From an uncultured Bacteroidia bacterium (lineage in GTDB: Bacteria > Bacteroidota > Bacteroidia > Bacteroidales > UBA932): a stretch of DNA of 54,341 nucleotides. The stretch spans positions 1 through 54,341 of the forward strand of contig CACYZM010000013.1 in the NCBI GenBank assembly GCA_902778855.1. Reading direction: 5' to 3'. A program made the position numbers and the translations under genes. Positions 8,536 to 45,883 of this stretch are shown here, one piece after another; position 1 is the stretch's first letter, and each line of letters starts with the position of its first letter. The notes beneath the pieces are model-generated. The model was not told the DNA's origin. It saw only the letters and a list, made by a program, of their open reading frames with translations, and made no database searches.

Positions 8536-8572
8536 CGTCTTCCTGCCTGTCTCTTCCAATCGGCCTGCCTCT

Positions 8573-8688
8573 GGACGCTCGATCCACCTTTCATCCATCT
8601 CATGGATCGTGCGTCCGGGAAATAGCGGTTTCATCGCCTTTTTTGGACGCTCGATCCATAAGACGGTTAATCCATGGACCGAGCGTCC
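8573..8688. repeat. REP doublet (REPIN-like) A-left
   Basis: Two 44-bp imperfect palindromes, 8573-8616 and 8645-8688, separated by 28 bp. Each has outer arms GGACGCTCGATCCA and its near complement around a 16-nt loop, and the two lie in opposite orientation. Read in reverse, the first matches the palindrome at 9960-10003 at 39 of 44 positions. The second matches the reverse of the palindrome at 9888-9931 at 38 of 44. Together they form the left terminal inverted repeat of RAYT unit A. Confidence 0.92.
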
Positions 8689-8750
8689 ACCTGAGCGCCG
8701 CAAAACATTGAATAGTATTAAATGCAGGAAAAAACCTGCAGGGAATGTCG

Positions 8751-8758
8751 TATATTTG
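8751..8758 (+). promoter_or_regulatory. -7 box for RAYT A
   Basis: TATATTTG matches TAnnTTTG, 89 nt upstream of the start codon. The second RAYT has its box at the equivalent distance (90 nt), which supports it. Confidence 0.65.
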
Positions 8759-8764
8759 TATCTG

Positions 8765-8838
8765 GCATTTCGGCTGTGGCGGTAGAACGCGGCGGGCGAA
8801 TTGTGCGAAAGATTTGTGTAACGAAAAGAACGAAATGC
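8765..8838 (+). promoter_or_regulatory. Conserved leader with pairing ends, RAYT A
   Basis: GCATTTCG (8765-8772) is the exact reverse complement of CGAAATGC (8831-8838), which ends 1 nt before the ATG. The 58 nt between contain GTGCGAAAGATTTGTG, shared with the leader of RAYT B. Pairing would close a loop immediately upstream of the start codon. A translational-control or transposase-recognition role is inferred. Confidence 0.5.
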
Positions 8839-8839
8839 G

Positions 8840-9775
8840 ATGCGGAAGACCTTTCACATCTCCCTTTCCTCGCACAACGAGGTAATGTTCCGGGATGAAG
8901 CCGACCTGACCCGCGGCTTCAACTGCTTGGCCCTGGCCATCTTGGAAACCGACTCCCGGCTGCTGGCCGACGGTTTTACCACTACGCATCTCCATCATCT
9001 GGCGCAATCCGATGCGCCCGATGAAGTGATGCGGCGCTACCGCTTGGCTTATACCCGCTATTTCAACGCCCGGCACAAACGGTCGGGAAGGATGGCCGAA
9101 AAATTCTGCTTCAAACTGCCGGTAGAAGGTTTCCATCATACGATGGCAGCTCTCAACTATGTGAACCGGCAGGGGCTCCATCACGGCCTTGCCCCAACAC
9201 CATTCGGATATCCATACTGCTCGGCCAATTCCTACTTTTCCAATCAGTTGGGGAAGGATCGAGATACTACGCTCCTGCCAGATTCTCAGCGCTATAAATA
9301 TCTGCCCCACGGCAACCCGGTTCCTTCCTCCTATCGGATGGATACTTCCGGACTCCTGCTCAGGGAAGACATTCTCGATGTCGCACTAGTCGAATCCTAC
9401 TACATCACGCCGCGGAACTATCTCTACCAGATGAACCGGCTCGGCGATGAAATGTTGCTGAAAGAACAGCGGGAAGAAGAATCTTCCTCCCCACTCATCA
9501 CGCTGGATCTCATCGAACAGGGAACGCCGGACTTTGACATCGGCCAACTCCTGCAAAATGAAAAGGGGAAGTTCGACCCCACGCTGATTTCCGATCTGGA
9601 ATTGTGTGCGCTGATCGATGAGACTTGCCTGCCGAAATACTGCAATGGCGTCACCATCTACGAGACATCCCTGAGCCAGCGCGAATTCCTGTATGACCTG
9701 ATCCGGCGAAACCTTTGGCGCGCCCGCCACAAAAGAACGTATGAAGCCCAACTGCGCCGCTGCCTCTGCCTGTAG
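8840..9775 (+). CDS. REP-associated tyrosine transposase-like protein (HUH, Y1), copy A
   Basis: 311 aa. HUH motif H50-L-H52 in TTTHLHHLAQ, and candidate catalytic Tyr107 in LNYVNRQGLHHGL, which resembles the YxHxNPxxAGL region of RAYT proteins. The 57-residue spacing fits single-tyrosine HUH enzymes. The C-terminal ~150 residues are conserved with copy B (43556-44491) but not recognised. The two proteins align without gaps over the full length and are roughly 60 percent identical by eye. The gene stands alone between inverted REP doublets. Such enzymes cut and join single-stranded REP DNA. Database entries may call this family hypothetical, so the RAYT call rests on motifs plus context. Confidence 0.75.
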   Translation: MRKTFHISLSSHNEVMFRDEADLTRGFNCLALAILETDSRLLADGFTTTHLHHLAQSDAPDEVMRRYRLAYTRYFNARHKRSGRMAEKFCFKLPVEGFHHTMAALNYVNRQGLHHGLAPTPFGYPYCSANSYFSNQLGKDRDTTLLPDSQRYKYLPHGNPVPSSYRMDTSGLLLREDILDVALVESYYITPRNYLYQMNRLGDEMLLKEQREEESSSPLITLDLIEQGTPDFDIGQLLQNEKGKFDPTLISDLELCALIDETCLPKYCNGVTIYETSLSQREFLYDLIRRNLWRARHKRTYEAQLRRCLCL

Positions 9776-9796
9776 TTGCCGGTCTGAATGGCTCCG

Positions 9797-9868
9797 TCGG
9801 GCAGACAGACAGACGGGCAGACGGACAGACGGGCGGCTACATAGACAGATGGGCAGGCACAGATAGAC
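9797..9868. repeat. GACA/GACG-rich simple-sequence tract
   Basis: Imperfect 4-nt periodic tract (GCAGACAGACAGACGG and similar) just after the RAYT A stop and before REP doublet A-right. No coding potential or CRISPR-like spacing. Together with 9888-10070 it fills most of the 398-bp gap between 9776 and 10173. Confidence 0.7.
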
Positions 9869-9887
9869 TTATTTGCGCTGCCCTACT

Positions 9888-10003
9888 GGACGCTCAGTCC
9901 ATGGATGCGCCGTCTCGTGGATCGAGCGTCCAAGATTGCCAGCATTTCGCCCTATTTCAGGACGCTCGATCCATGAGATGGATAAACGATGGACCGAGCG
10001 TCC
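9888..10003. repeat. REP doublet (REPIN-like) A-right
   Basis: Palindromes 9888-9931 and 9960-10003, each 44 bp, separated by 28 bp, identical geometry to A-left but as its reverse complement. The gap is also partly conserved in inverted form (GAAATAG). It forms the right terminal inverted repeat of RAYT unit A. Confidence 0.92.
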
Positions 10004-10030
10004 AACCTATCAGACCAAACTATTCCAGGT

Positions 10031-41852: not shown

Positions 41853-42770
41853 TTACAAACTTTTAATCCACTTCGTCGCTTCCTCCAGCGGCTGGTCCGT
41901 CGTCACGTCCGGGGCGATGGGGTCGTCGCAGAAGATTTCGCCGGTGCGGGCCATGTCGCAGCCGGTCGTCAGCACGAGCTGCGAGCCGTCGGGCATAGGG
42001 TATGGCGCGTTTGCTGAGGCGTAGCCGGCTGTCGGAGCGCCGAAGGTGCGGGCTTTCTCCAGTCCCCGGAAGCAGAGCAGGGTCGCTTCGCCGGAGCTGG
42101 CTGTTTTATCATCGGTCAGCAGGGCGACGGGGCAGTCGAGGGCCGGCCGGGCCGAGAGCCCCACGTTCCGAAGGACCATATCTTTCGTCACGTGCATCGT
42201 GAACTTCCGGGTTTTGAATCGCAGGATATTGTCATCCGGCAAGAAACGGTGGATGGCGGCGATCATCGGATACATATTGCCGCCGGTATTGCCGCGCAGG
42301 TCGATGACGACGCCTTTCAGCGCGACGGCTTCCGGGGTTTCGGCTTCCGGCAGCGCGTCGAGCACGGCCTTGGCATAGCGCTGGTTTTCATCGGCCGACT
42401 GGCCGCTGAAATGCGGCAGAACGATGAGCAGGATGCCGTCATCGAGCGTCGTCACCGAAGGCTCGGTTGCCATGTCCTCGGCCGACAACTCCTGCTGGCG
42501 CTCCTCAGTCCAGATGAAAGAATGCTTGCCCCCGGCTACCTTAATCGCCGTCCGGGTAATCTCGTAAGCCTCTTCCTTCGTCCCCGGCCTGGCTTCCAGC
42601 GCCGCCGCCCGCGTCTGCTCCCACGCCGGCCCCTCAGCGAAAAGCCCGTGCTTGTCCATCAGCTTGACGGCTTTCTTGACATATTTTTGTTCCGGACTCT
42701 GGCACCCGGCCAGCATCAGACTGGCCAGCGCAGCCAGTGTGAAAAAAGAGAGATACAGTGAACGTTTCAT
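41853..42770 (-). CDS. S41-family peptidase lipoprotein
   Basis: 305 aa. Lipoprotein signal (LMLAGC-QS). The tail-specific protease core is visible: GVVIDLRGNTGGNMYPMI, then LLTDDKTASSGEATLLCF where the Ser of SSGE is the expected nucleophile, and GAPTAGYASAN. No PDZ domain is apparent and the protein is short for C-terminal processing peptidases, as in many Bacteroidota S41 lipoproteins. Envelope peptidase; substrate unknown. Confidence 0.88.
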   Translation of the reverse strand: MKRSLYLSFFTLAALASLMLAGCQSPEQKYVKKAVKLMDKHGLFAEGPAWEQTRAAALEARPGTKEEAYEITRTAIKVAGGKHSFIWTEERQQELSAEDMATEPSVTTLDDGILLIVLPHFSGQSADENQRYAKAVLDALPEAETPEAVALKGVVIDLRGNTGGNMYPMIAAIHRFLPDDNILRFKTRKFTMHVTKDMVLRNVGLSARPALDCPVALLTDDKTASSGEATLLCFRGLEKARTFGAPTAGYASANAPYPMPDGSQLVLTTGCDMARTGEIFCDDPIAPDVTTDQPLEEATKWIKSL

Positions 42771-42782: not shown

Positions 42783-42874
42783 CGCAATTTATGGCAATTT
42801 TCCTCGCGGAACGACATGTTCATCGGTCGTAACCGTATGCGAAGTACCACGGGCAGATTCTGCGCCGCCGGTCT

Positions 42875-42989
42875 GGCAACGAAAGGGATGACGGCGCTGC
42901 TTGATCCCTTTCGTTGCCAAAAACTGGCGATTATGGCCGAAAAGTGGCGACGAAAGGGATGAGATAGATAAACTATACCTTTCGCTGCC
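42875..42989. repeat. REP doublet (REPIN-like) B-left
   Basis: Palindromes 42875-42918 and 42946-42989, each 44 bp, 27 bp apart, arms GGCAACGAAAGGGAT and complement. Their reverse complements match the palindromes at 44617-44660 (40 of 44) and 44546-44589 (40 of 44). The gap is conserved in inverted form too (ACTTTTCGGCC...TTTTT). Confidence 0.93.
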
Positions 42990-43425
42990 GGAAAATGAGA
43001 TAAAGCAGATGTACCACCATCGCAGCAAGCAGTGTCCAGGTAACACCAGACAGTGGCTGCGCAAGTTTCCCGACCGCCATCAGGTAGAGACTCAGTGACA
43101 GCCAGGCAAAGACGGCAATCCCCCACATTTTTATGGCGCGGCCGATCGCTGTTGCTAAAGCGGGATTGTCTTCTCCCGCTTGCCGGGGCAGATTGATCAG
43201 CCGAGGGCGTTTTTGGACAAAGAATAGCAGTCCATACAAGGCCGCAGCGATGAGGGCCAGATATAAGAAAACCGTCCGGTCTCCCCAGGCGTCAATTTTT
43301 CCATGGAAGAAATGCCTGGGAACAGGTATCCCTGCCAGTTCGCCATAGTGTACTAGCGGGAAAAGTGTCACCAGCAGCAAGACAGCAGTTATGATTTCCT
43401 CGAAGAGGCGGATTCTCTTGTTCAT
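42973..43425 (-). CDS. Four-helix small membrane protein inside RAYT unit B
   Basis: 150 aa. Four predicted membrane segments (about 10-27, 50-70, 102-121, 125-145). No family recognised. The last codons (FRQRKV and the TAG stop) lie inside REP palindrome 42946-42989, so the repeat supplies the end of the protein, pointing to insertion of the REP into an older gene or to a gene built with the unit. It is divergent from the RAYT gene. Confidence 0.7.
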   Translation of the reverse strand: MNKRIRLFEEIITAVLLLVTLFPLVHYGELAGIPVPRHFFHGKIDAWGDRTVFLYLALIAAALYGLLFFVQKRPRLINLPRQAGEDNPALATAIGRAIKMWGIAVFAWLSLSLYLMAVGKLAQPLSGVTWTLLAAMVVHLLYLIFRQRKV

Positions 43426-43465
43426 AATGGCAGCGTTATATGCAGTAAAGTTAGCAAATAATCCC

Positions 43466-43473
43466 TATCTTTG
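43466..43473 (+). promoter_or_regulatory. -7 box for RAYT B
   Basis: TATCTTTG matches TAnnTTTG, 90 nt before the ATG, equivalent to the box of RAYT A. Confidence 0.65.
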
Positions 43474-43479
43474 AGGAAA

Positions 43480-43554
43480 GCATTTCGTCGGTGCGGCGGG
43501 CCGTGGCGAACGAAACGTGCGAAAGATTTGTGAAACTGTAGTAAAACGAAATGC
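43480..43554 (+). promoter_or_regulatory. Conserved leader with pairing ends, RAYT B
   Basis: GCATTTCG (43480-43487) and CGAAATGC (43547-43554) are exact reverse complements 59 nt apart, the second ending 1 nt before the ATG, as in RAYT A. GTGCGAAAGATTTGTG within is identical in both leaders although the REPs differ. Confidence 0.5.
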
Positions 43555-43555
43555 C

Positions 43556-44491
43556 ATGAGAAAGACCTATCACATCTGTCTCTCTTCCCACAATGAAGTG
43601 ATGTTCCGGAGTGAAGCTGACTTGTGTCGCGGCTTCAATGCCTTGGCGCTTGCCATCCTGGAAACAGATTCCCGTCTGCTGGCAGAAGGTTTCCTGACCA
43701 CCCATTTCCATCAACTGGTTCAGACAGACTGTCCGGATGAAGTCATCCGGCGGACACGCTATGCGCATGCCCGGTTTTTCAATACGAAATACAAGCGACG
43801 GGGAAGCCTGGGCGAAAGGCGCCCCTTTTCACTGGAGGTGGAAGGATTCCACCATACCGTGGCTGCCCTGAACTATGTAAACCGGCAGGGTCTCCATCAC
43901 GGACTTTCACAGACGCCTTTCGGTTACCGGCACTGTTCAGCCGGCGTGTTCTTCCAACAGGACTTCGGGCATCGGCAACCGGTGGCATTGATGCCTGCCG
44001 ACCAACGCTATAAGTATCTGCCCAAAGGAATCAACATTCCGACAGAATACAGGATGGATACGAGCGGGCAGCTGCTGCGGGAAGACGTTATCGATACGGC
44101 TCAGGTGGAATCCTTCTACGCCACTCCGCGGAATTATCTTTACCAGATGAACAAGATCGGCGATGAAATGTCGGTAAAAGAACAGCAACAGGAAGAATCC
44201 ACCACGCCCATCATTACGATGGCCGTTATGGAACCCGGTTATTCTCCTGAAGAGATTGGCCGGCTGCTGCAAAATGAAAAAGGACGCTATGATCCGCAAA
44301 TGATTACGGACCTGGAGTTATGTGCCGTCATCGACGATGCCTGTCTGCCCAAATACTTCAAAGGCGTCACCCTCTACGAACTGTCCCGGCAGCAACGGAT
44401 CTGGCTCTGCAATCTGCTCTGGAAAAACCTTTGGCCCCGCCGTCGGAAAAGGACCACGGAAGCCCAATTGAAGCGGTGCCTCTGGCTATGA
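43556..44491 (+). CDS. REP-associated tyrosine transposase-like protein (HUH, Y1), copy B
   Basis: 311 aa, same length as copy A and alignable without gaps. HUH motif H50-F-H52 in LTTHFHQLVQTD; candidate catalytic Tyr107 in LNYVNRQGLHHGL. The blocks RYKYLP, YRMDTSG, LLRED, TPRNYLYQMN, LLQNEKG and DLELCA are shared with copy A; differences cluster at 53-95 and 125-150, plausible REP-recognition surfaces (inference). ATG 43556 (MRKTYHICLSS) corresponds to the start of copy A. The frame is open 13 codons upstream but that is conserved leader. Flanked by its own REP family. Confidence 0.75.
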   Translation: MRKTYHICLSSHNEVMFRSEADLCRGFNALALAILETDSRLLAEGFLTTHFHQLVQTDCPDEVIRRTRYAHARFFNTKYKRRGSLGERRPFSLEVEGFHHTVAALNYVNRQGLHHGLSQTPFGYRHCSAGVFFQQDFGHRQPVALMPADQRYKYLPKGINIPTEYRMDTSGQLLREDVIDTAQVESFYATPRNYLYQMNKIGDEMSVKEQQQEESTTPIITMAVMEPGYSPEEIGRLLQNEKGRYDPQMITDLELCAVIDDACLPKYFKGVTLYELSRQQRIWLCNLLWKNLWPRRRKRTTEAQLKRCLWL

Positions 44492-44545
44492 AGCTTCTTT
44501 CGCGAGAGATGTGGGTCTGAGACCGATTCCTTTATTCCATTGTTT

Positions 44546-44660
44546 GGCAGCGAAAGGGATCATTTATCTATCTCATCCCTTTCGTTGCCACTTTTCGGCC
44601 GAAACAGTCGGTTTTTGGCAGCGAAAGGGATCAAGCGGCGCCGGCATCCCTTTCGCTGCC
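44546..44660. repeat. REP doublet (REPIN-like) B-right
   Basis: Palindromes 44546-44589 and 44617-44660, 44 bp each with a 27-bp gap, arms GGCAGCGAAAGGGAT and complement. It is the reverse complement of B-left, so the two close RAYT unit B as long terminal inverted repeats. Confidence 0.93.
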
Positions 44661-44746
44661 AGACCAGCGGCGCAGAAGGAGTGGCGGCGCAAAAGACAGG
44701 ATATGGATGGCCGACAGGGCTTGATGCCCCGGAGGCGGAGACGCGT

Positions 44747-45883
44747 CTATTTGTTGGCCTCAGGCGTTGTTTGGGAGAAGGCGGCGATGACGGCGCGGAG
44801 GGCGCGGGCGTCATCGCGGGGGCGGATGGTGCCTTCGTCGTTGCCGGACTTGAGGGTGTAGTAGCGGTTGAGGAAGCTGTTGGCGTCGGACCAGATGGTA
44901 TGGATGTAGCCTTGCAGGTGGGCGGCGGTTGCGCGAGCGGACTGCTTGCGGAAGCGGGCCATGTCGCTGATCTGCTGCAGGCAGACATCCGGATTCCGGT
45001 AGCCGCAGGAAGCGACGTTGAAGCCTTTCATCGCGAAATAGACACCGGTCAGGTCGGCCCGTTCGTAGTGCCAGTCGCAGATGAAGACATCTTTCGGGAT
45101 CATGTCGATGGCCGGCCAGGTGTCGTTGTAGCTGGCTTCCCACTCGCCGAGTCCGGTCGTGCGGCCGTCGAGCAGACGGTCGCCCCAGATCATCAGCTGG
45201 CGGCCTTTCTCCGCCAGGTGGTCGTGGATCAGGGTCACTTCGCCGGCGAACAGTTCGGCTTTGTCGTGGTCGTGGCAGCGGGGGCATTCCGCTTCGCCTA
45301 GATAGAACACTTCGTCCATCCCGGCGTGGAAGCCGTCGGCCTCAAAGGCATCGCAGAGTTCATCCACCAAAGCGAAGACGACGTCGTGCACTTCCGGATG
45401 GAGCGGGCAATAGCTTTTGCAGTAGAGGCGGTCGGGATTCGGCCAGGGTTTATAGTTCGCCGTCTTGACGGAAGGAGTCTCGTCGAATTGGGGATATTCC
45501 CGGAGCAGGGCGTGCGTTTTCTCCGCCCAGGACTGATGCCCCAGCAGATTGATCTGTGGCACGACGCGGATGCCGTGCTTCCGGCAGACCGCTACGATCT
45601 TCCTCACATCTTCCCGGGTCAGCGGATTGGGGTCCCGGAGTTCCGGATGCGATTCATAGGCGTAGTTCCAGTCCACCCGCAGGATGAGCAGGTTGAAGTG
45701 GGCCGGAGCCAGCTCTTCTTCCACGAAGGTGAGGAAACGATCCAGCCCGGCGGGCTTGGGCGCTTCGATGGCCAGGCCTCTGACAGGGAGAGACTCGGCG
45801 GCCTCTTCTTCTGCTGCCCGGCAGAAGGAGGGGAAAAGCAGCATCAGGGATACGGTCAGCAGTAAAAAGGACAAATGTTTCAT
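44747..45883 (-). CDS. Secreted GH20-like glycoside hydrolase
   Basis: 378 aa. Signal peptide to about residue 23. A TIM-barrel pattern follows: FNLLILRVDWNYAYES, HGIRVVPQINLLGHQSWAE, and DGFHAGMDEVFYLGE, where Asp-Glu is the catalytic pair expected in family 20 beta-hexosaminidases. No N-terminal GH20b domain and no carbohydrate-binding module, so it is a short, divergent member and the substrate cannot be stated. The gene starts 24 nt downstream of the LysR-type gene on the same strand. Confidence 0.75.
   Translation of the reverse strand: MKHLSFLLLTVSLMLLFPSFCRAAEEEAAESLPVRGLAIEAPKPAGLDRFLTFVEEELAPAHFNLLILRVDWNYAYESHPELRDPNPLTREDVRKIVAVCRKHGIRVVPQINLLGHQSWAEKTHALLREYPQFDETPSVKTANYKPWPNPDRLYCKSYCPLHPEVHDVVFALVDELCDAFEADGFHAGMDEVFYLGEAECPRCHDHDKAELFAGEVTLIHDHLAEKGRQLMIWGDRLLDGRTTGLGEWEASYNDTWPAIDMIPKDVFICDWHYERADLTGVYFAMKGFNVASCGYRNPDVCLQQISDMARFRKQSARATAAHLQGYIHTIWSDANSFLNRYYTLKSGNDEGTIRPRDDARALRAVIAAFSQTTPEANK

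Follow-up and report, generated by a model that had tools for sequence, protein, structure and literature searches.

A RAYT-like gene between inverted hairpin doublets in a Bacteroidales genome, with a stem that probably belongs to its own enzyme

When two paralogous RAYT-like genes of one genome stand between palindromes of different sequence, does each palindrome belong to its own enzyme, and if so, which part of the hairpin and which part of the protein carry the match? The question is raised by a window of 54,341 nucleotides from an uncultured Bacteroidales genome (contig CACYZM010000013.1; the window is the whole stretch that was analysed), and above all by its second such locus, unit B, which the initial annotation had described correctly base for base. 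The left doublet of unit B consists of the repeats 42875-42918 and 42946-42989 and the right doublet of 44546-44589 and 44617-44660, each laid out as 44 + 27 + 44 bp. The doublets are inverted, with 40/44 identity in both matched pairs; the similarity extends 17 bp outwards (16/17 identical), and the spacers agree at 21/27 positions. A repeat search returns the whole as a single inverted repeat of 148 nt with 86% identity (42858-43005 / 44530-44677). Four hairpins of 16+14+16 nt flank the gene, two per side. In the left doublet (42858-43005, minus strand; 148 nt) the order on the minus strand is loop 1 then loop 2, the right doublet (44530-44677) lies on the plus strand, and loop 2 is outermost in both. 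The outer left hairpin (42874-42919, stem TGGCAACGAAAGGGAT) is of the loop 2 type and the inner left hairpin (42945-42990) of the loop 1 type, reading GAGATAGATAAA on the plus strand; on the right, the inner hairpin (44545-44590) has loop 1, ATTTATCTATCTC, and the outer hairpin (44616-44661) has loop 2, CAAGCGGCGCC. The gene for RAYT-like protein B (43556-44491, plus strand; 311 aa) starts about 550 nt downstream of the end of the left doublet. Between the two, on the opposite strand, lies an ORF for a 150-aa membrane protein (42973-43425, minus strand), whose 3' end and stop codon sit inside the inner left hairpin and which is present within unit B in genomes G017, G018 and G022 too.

Protein B is very probably a TnpA_REP-fold HUH/Tyr enzyme, because of the structural matches of its model and the conservation of H50, H52 and Y107. 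The AlphaFold2 model (64 aligned relatives) has a mean pLDDT of 93.8, and its top PDB match in Foldseek is 4er8, the E. coli REP transposase (TnpA_REP) with a REP hairpin (E 5e-5, target TM 0.68); the IS608 and ISDra2 TnpA and related transposases rank below it. The protein carries HxH at residues 50-52, Tyr107 and YVNRQ; among 64 sequences H50 and Y107 never vary and H52 hardly does. The single-Tyr HUH fold of TnpA_REP/RAYT proteins is predicted for B on these grounds, which supports the earlier designation as a RAYT unit. Profile searches gave no meaningful match for A or B in Pfam and NCBIfam, and the Pfam model Y1_Tnp (PF01797) matched neither protein and only one of 64 relatives, at E 0.08. 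Since that profile fits class 2 only in part, according to the accessible text of PMC6006769, the miss leaves membership of the TnpA_REP/RAYT proteins possible. The protein sequence found no match in the PDB, a plasmid search gave none, and PHROGs returned only weak matches to families without a telling name. The C-terminal ~150 residues of B, modelled alone, reached a pLDDT of 70.8 and had no PDB match below E 1.

The other locus of the window, unit A (8572-10004), is made of the same kinds of parts. Its left doublet (8572-8704, plus strand) has hairpins at 8572-8617 and 8644-8689, stem TGGACGCTCGATCCAT and loop 1 outermost; the gene for protein A follows (8840-9775, plus strand), and the right doublet (9872-10004, minus strand) has hairpins at 9887-9932 and 9959-10004. 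Protein B is indeed, as had been proposed, a 311-aa paralogue of the 311-aa protein A, at 64% identity. The identical geometry ascribed to the two units extends to the parts but not to their direction: loop 1 is outermost in A and loop 2 in B, so that the A and B doublets point opposite ways, and those of unit C are direct. The same genome holds two more close paralogues, C (60%) and D (53%), as well as two distant RAYT-like paralogues and one further weak match. The distant proteins have 330 and 337 aa (L005, L006), and palindromic repeats with 51-nt spacing and other sequence lie at L005:1113-1303 and L006:1144-2513 (CGGTGAGCAAA... and GGGCACGG...). The array downstream of unit C (L003:1289-1478) holds an extra end-plus-arm copy, as if a doublet had been inserted in the loop of another, a nesting judged by eye only.

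The palindromes of A and B had been called completely different, and the repeats unrelated. The stems do differ, with 7/16 positions alike when the two doublets are aligned, but both doublets have their loops, their right end and a portion of the spacer in common, and the repeats are not unrelated. Among 51 aligned non-redundant doublets of the A, B and C types, collected by loop 1, a common frame runs from the left end (TTnATCYCATT) through loop 1 (TTYATCYATCTC), the spacer and loop 2 (CAAGCGGCGCC) to the right end (GCGGCGCA); in A-type copies adjoining the enzyme the left end is mostly lost. Loop 2 repeats the right-end motif, which was found in loop 2 of 49/63 doublets, at the right end of 39 and at both places in 30, against 7 and 10% in shuffles. 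The resemblance of loop 1 to the left end (left-end motif in 27/63 doublets) is partly circular because the doublets were collected by loop 1, whereas the echo between loop 2 and the right end is not. Loops and ends may thus form a common cleavage module. No conserved columns for a GTAG or CGTC head were found at the hairpin foot in the 51 doublets, and the TIRtron terminal repeat GGGG[AT][CG]A[CG], as given in the accessible text of PMC6006769, is absent from their consensus. Within this frame the stem changes. The sister clade of A (L073, L077, L081, L084 and others) has arms with CGCGAAAGGGA, nearer to B's GGCAACGAAAGGGAT than to A's, and the 3' arm of L073 (GGACGCGAAAGGGAT) has 9/15 positions in common with A's GGACGCTCGATCCAT, including the GGACGC foot. 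Because the sister arms are closer to those of B and the foot is common with L073, the A stem appears, in this comparison of arms, to be derived by a switch in its middle part.

How far this pattern extends can be seen among relatives. With each species represented by a single genome, a scan found 108 related stretches; the best 80 were kept and, together with A-D, make up the 84 loci examined. All 80 titles name Bacteroidales or Bacteroidia, many with ruminant samples and two with horse faeces, and 27/40 genomes of the genus have an enzyme match, distant ones included. Palindromic motifs that recur (with no fewer than two arms per strand and two arm pairs) are present at 71/84 loci, unit B among them, and in 0/84 block-shuffled controls (one shuffle per locus). 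Thirteen loci failed, 12 with full flanks and one with a short flank; a palindrome is visible in other scans at three of them (L074, L084, L143), and at the remainder the doublet may be absent. The two-hairpin layout recurs in three further tree groups, with other loops. The downstream flanks of L119, L103 and L105 carry long BIME-like arrays of hairpin arms, up to 12 in L119.

Across these loci stem sequence goes with protein clade, as the initial annotation had expected. Stems are alike in 35/35 pairs of loci at 80% protein identity or more, in 71/319 at 60-80%, in 64/1440 at 45-60% and in 2/691 below 45%. The Mantel correlation of stem with protein (rho 0.21, reached in 0/2000 permutations) is inflated, like the Fisher test given below, by linked copies and related loci. 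Automatic stem picking produced artefacts at L072 and L085, both inside these figures (L085 is A-type by its loop); without the two, rho is 0.24 and the first and last counts are 35/35 and 2/669. After L072, L085, L090 and L111 had been removed by hand, a removal that also applies to the residue scan, 67 stems fell into 22 to 30 clusters, depending on the threshold, and only 1/48 pairs of enzymes from one genome (genomes grouped by accession) had a common stem.

Copies away from the enzyme bear on the same question. In the genome of the window, two contigs on which the enzyme has no close match carry B-stem doublets (C26:24659 and C17:37965), and loop-defined doublets number 7 vs 0 control matches. 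A-type doublets stand away from the enzyme in G000, G010 and G037. At least 7/40 genomes have A-type doublets, and 6 of these have an A-clade enzyme; the exception, G015, has no A-clade enzyme match in an incomplete assembly (87%), and G020 likewise has doublets and no enzyme match in an incomplete one (78%). Among the matches listed, solo A-type copies occur in 3/6 enzyme genomes vs 1/34 others (Fisher 0.008), and exact B-type arm hairpins occur in 5/40 genus genomes, all with a B-clade enzyme that at least one hairpin adjoins in each. The same palindromes are therefore found elsewhere in the genome, here and in relatives, as in a REPtron; outside the genome of the window some loop-pattern matches resemble coding sequence rather than doublets (the sole matches of G007 and G018 are examples). 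Copies are few, about ten or fewer per stem type per genome among the matches listed, and not the tens to hundreds of canonical REPs, and degenerate copies could be hidden from this count. No clean empty site was found for solo elements, whose flanks are rearranged between species, nor for unit B, whose flank genes are adjacent without the unit in G033, with the right gene inverted. Four loci in G020 and G035 (L148-L150 and L152) hold near-identical loop-type doublets, three of them near G020 contig ends, and L159 holds dispersed repeats at 228-325 (~90 nt) and 322-461 (~135 nt) with matches in at least many of the 40 genus genomes.

On the protein side, the differences between A and B cluster at residues 53-95 and 125-150, as previously noted (0.58 vs 0.29 elsewhere, circular-shift p 0.003); in four other family sets the clustering in these regions is less sharp, the value being reached by 12, 24, 88 and 21 of 310 shifts. 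The suggestion that these differences mark the recognition surface finds support in part of one region only: residues 81-96 and 61-76 track the stem, but 125-150 showed no stem association in a residue scan with overall identity removed and was dropped as a specificity surface. That scan (67 loci, 353 overlap-zone pairs, 95 of them stem-alike, 300 permutations) places residues 81-96 at the top for stem sharing at given identity (r 0.30 and 0.27), with 81-92 best (r 0.30, 0/300 permutations), followed by 153-168, 177-188, 289-308 and 61-76; it is exploratory because related loci are not independent. The 26 substitutions confined to the A clade include positions 79, 82, 89, 90, 92 and 94. In the model, residues 81-96 lie where a helix (60-79) is joined to a strand (91-95), and from these alignments they are a candidate segment for reading the stem. 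In the accessible text of PMC6006769, insertions between helix C and strand 4 were proposed to assist Bacteroidetes subclass 2.6 in recognizing unusual REPs, a site that by analogy would lie near this segment.

Taken as a whole, unit B is probably a REPtron-like locus, in which a nuclease of the HUH/Tyr TnpA_REP fold is joined by non-autonomous doublets that it processes and the stem serves as a private key. The element would be the doublet, two hairpins with stems of ~16 bp set ~25 nt apart. The enzyme would bind the extruded stem, place its cut by means of the conserved loop and the sequence of the element end, and re-join the DNA with Tyr107. The stem would be the key of each enzyme/element pair, and loops and ends the machinery common to the A/B/C group. 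As paralogues diverged, the stem would have changed in all copies together with the protein segment around 81-96. Mismatched pairs within the stems offer a view of the strand involved, since hairpins acting as single strands should show more G.T than A.C on the acting strand. Over 95 hairpins, G.T vs A.C is 38 vs 18 in hairpin 1 and 21 vs 47 in hairpin 2 (59 vs 65 together); by stem class (A/B/C), hairpin 1 fits in 6/8 and hairpin 2 in 7/8, and the other groups show no strand trend (5 opposite and 5 same of 36 doublets). These mixed counts do no more than suggest that the two hairpins work on opposite strands, as in an inverted REP pair. Speaking against the REPtron-like reading are these mixed counts, the missing GTAG or CGTC head, the few copies, the 13 loci that failed the palindrome test, the doublets of G015 and G020 with no matching enzyme in their incomplete assemblies, and the failure to find a clean empty site.

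A match of stem and protein could also arise from shared descent only, the flanks drifting with a vertically inherited locus and no stem being recognized. Part of the correlation is vertical descent, because four of the five A-clade relatives (L075, L082, L083, L136) are flanked by the same pair of genes as unit A (L085 is not), and the inflation of the Mantel and Fisher tests favors the same account. More than descent is probably involved, however, since copies far from the enzyme keep the same private stem, and the arms within a locus vary together against constant loops and a partly constant frame. In the exploratory scan, moreover, the stem association persists after correction for overall identity, and only a few segments show it. 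Descent as the sole cause is thus unlikely, and co-diverged private pairs of enzyme and hairpin, known in principle from other RAYTs, are probably what these loci contain.

Unit B could instead be a DNA-inversion switch, with the enzyme flipping the gene that encodes it together with the 150-aa membrane gene. In G022 (which appears to carry L068) the unit is inverted relative to the left flank gene, whereas G000, G017 and G018 agree with one another. The doublet beside that gene is alike in G022 and G017 on its outer side, which goes with the flank, and different on its inner side, which goes with the unit; the change point falls in a common stretch across stem 1 and loop 1. As read from the two doublets, this pattern is what exchange between inverted doublets leaves as its trace. 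In G000 the spacer types are reversed though the unit is not inverted, which asks for further exchange or conversion, and in G022 ~2.4 kb extra separates the unit from the right flank gene. The unit is flipped, however, in only one of the four genomes with the flank, and an assembly error is possible because G017 is broken over two contigs. The apparent inversion could be due to the enzyme or to host recombination, which between inverted repeats of 148 nt gives the same result. Unit A, moreover, keeps a constant orientation to its neighbors in the four relatives with that context, and the doublets of C are direct, so a dedicated switch appears quite improbable. The flank genes of unit B (41853-42770 and 44747-45883) have another relative orientation in G033, G035 and G016, and the neighborhood is therefore rearrangement-prone.

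Still less probable is an autonomous transposon of the IS200/IS605 type with the doublets as its ends. A gene between inverted doublets and a 148-nt inverted repeat would suit it, but a complete doublet stands on each side, solo doublets exist, C is one of several loci whose doublets are direct, and unit A occupies one site in 4/5 relatives. Least credible of all are hairpins that serve mainly as bidirectional terminators or mRNA stabilizers: the stems are stable, mostly extragenic at gene ends and in one case overlap a gene 3' end, yet conserved loops, pairs at fixed spacing and the matching of stem to enzyme would go unexplained.

Beyond the REPtron-like reading of unit B itself, it is conceivable, as a more speculative proposal, that a rumen Bacteroidales genus carries a radiation of mutually orthogonal nuclease/hairpin pairs. 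The stem would be an exchangeable address, its foot and middle block separately changeable, read by a short segment; loops and ends would be the common cleavage module, and some pairs would flip their own gene by way of the doublets. Hairpin choice by REP transposases is only partly known, three REPtrons having been studied according to the accessible text of PMC8266576, and the 67 loci with 22 to 30 stem types are a natural set of enzyme-and-hairpin pairs. Since sister clades keep their loops and change their stem, exchanges of ~15 residues and of a few base pairs would put the specificity code to a direct test. None of the Pfam and NCBIfam models that were scanned reports this branch; its loci, which belong to a poorly charted family of probable hairpin-cutting enzymes with a stem that seems, from sequence comparison, private to each, are therefore probably under-annotated.

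Co-evolution itself is not a new idea, because trees of the same topology for RAYTs and their REPs in Stenotrophomonas were published in 2010 (PMC2817692), followed by the switching of REP class (“orthoswitch”) in 2013 (PMC3686654), so that co-divergence is on record for other RAYTs in the accessible text of both. Recognition by three REPtrons was studied in 2021 (PMC8266576), a Bacteroidetes TnpA_REP subclass with atypical structures was described in 2018 (PMC6006769), and the GTAG, CGTC and TIR types are covered in PMC3733652. Literature from mostly outside subscription journals, in its accessible portions, did not describe this branch and its long-stem doublets, a stem switch on conserved loops, residues 81-96 as a candidate reader segment, or an inversion of unit B in one relative with exchange inside the doublets. 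Rather than co-divergence, the better finding is, on sequence grounds, the stem switch on a conserved frame together with a short candidate reader segment.

Among known systems, the TnpA of IS200/IS605 elements (IS608, ISDra2) resembles protein B in its catalytic fold by Foldseek, but unit B does not have the simple layout of left end, gene and right end. TIRYTs and TIRtrons, as far as described in the accessible text of PMC3733652 and PMC6006769, are RAYT relatives with long inverted repeats and C-terminal extensions, as here, but the present loci have hairpin doublets and a conserved end other than GGGG[AT][CG]A[CG]. TnpA_REP subclass 2.6 shares with the loci studied here its occurrence in Bacteroidetes, “atypical secondary structures” flanking the gene and copies elsewhere; the accessible description sets it apart, with 179 aa, NH[LIV]H and YIH[QN]NP (PMC6006769) against 311 aa, TH[FL]H and YVNRQ here. 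The RAYT/REP systems of Stenotrophomonas, Pseudomonas and E. coli, in the accessible parts of their accounts (PMC2817692, PMC3686654, PMC8266576), have the HUH/Tyr fold, a palindrome-flanked gene and inverted doublets in common with unit B, and paralogues with private REPs, co-evolution and an “orthoswitch” of REP class in common with the group. The gene between inverted REPs that marks a REPtron is found in A and B, whereas C and several others have direct doublets. Unlike those systems, the present hairpins lack a GTAG head and have stems of ~16 bp, loops of 14 nt and few copies, their enzyme of 311 aa leaves the Y1_Tnp Pfam model silent, and in the A/B/C group the loops are kept while the stems change.
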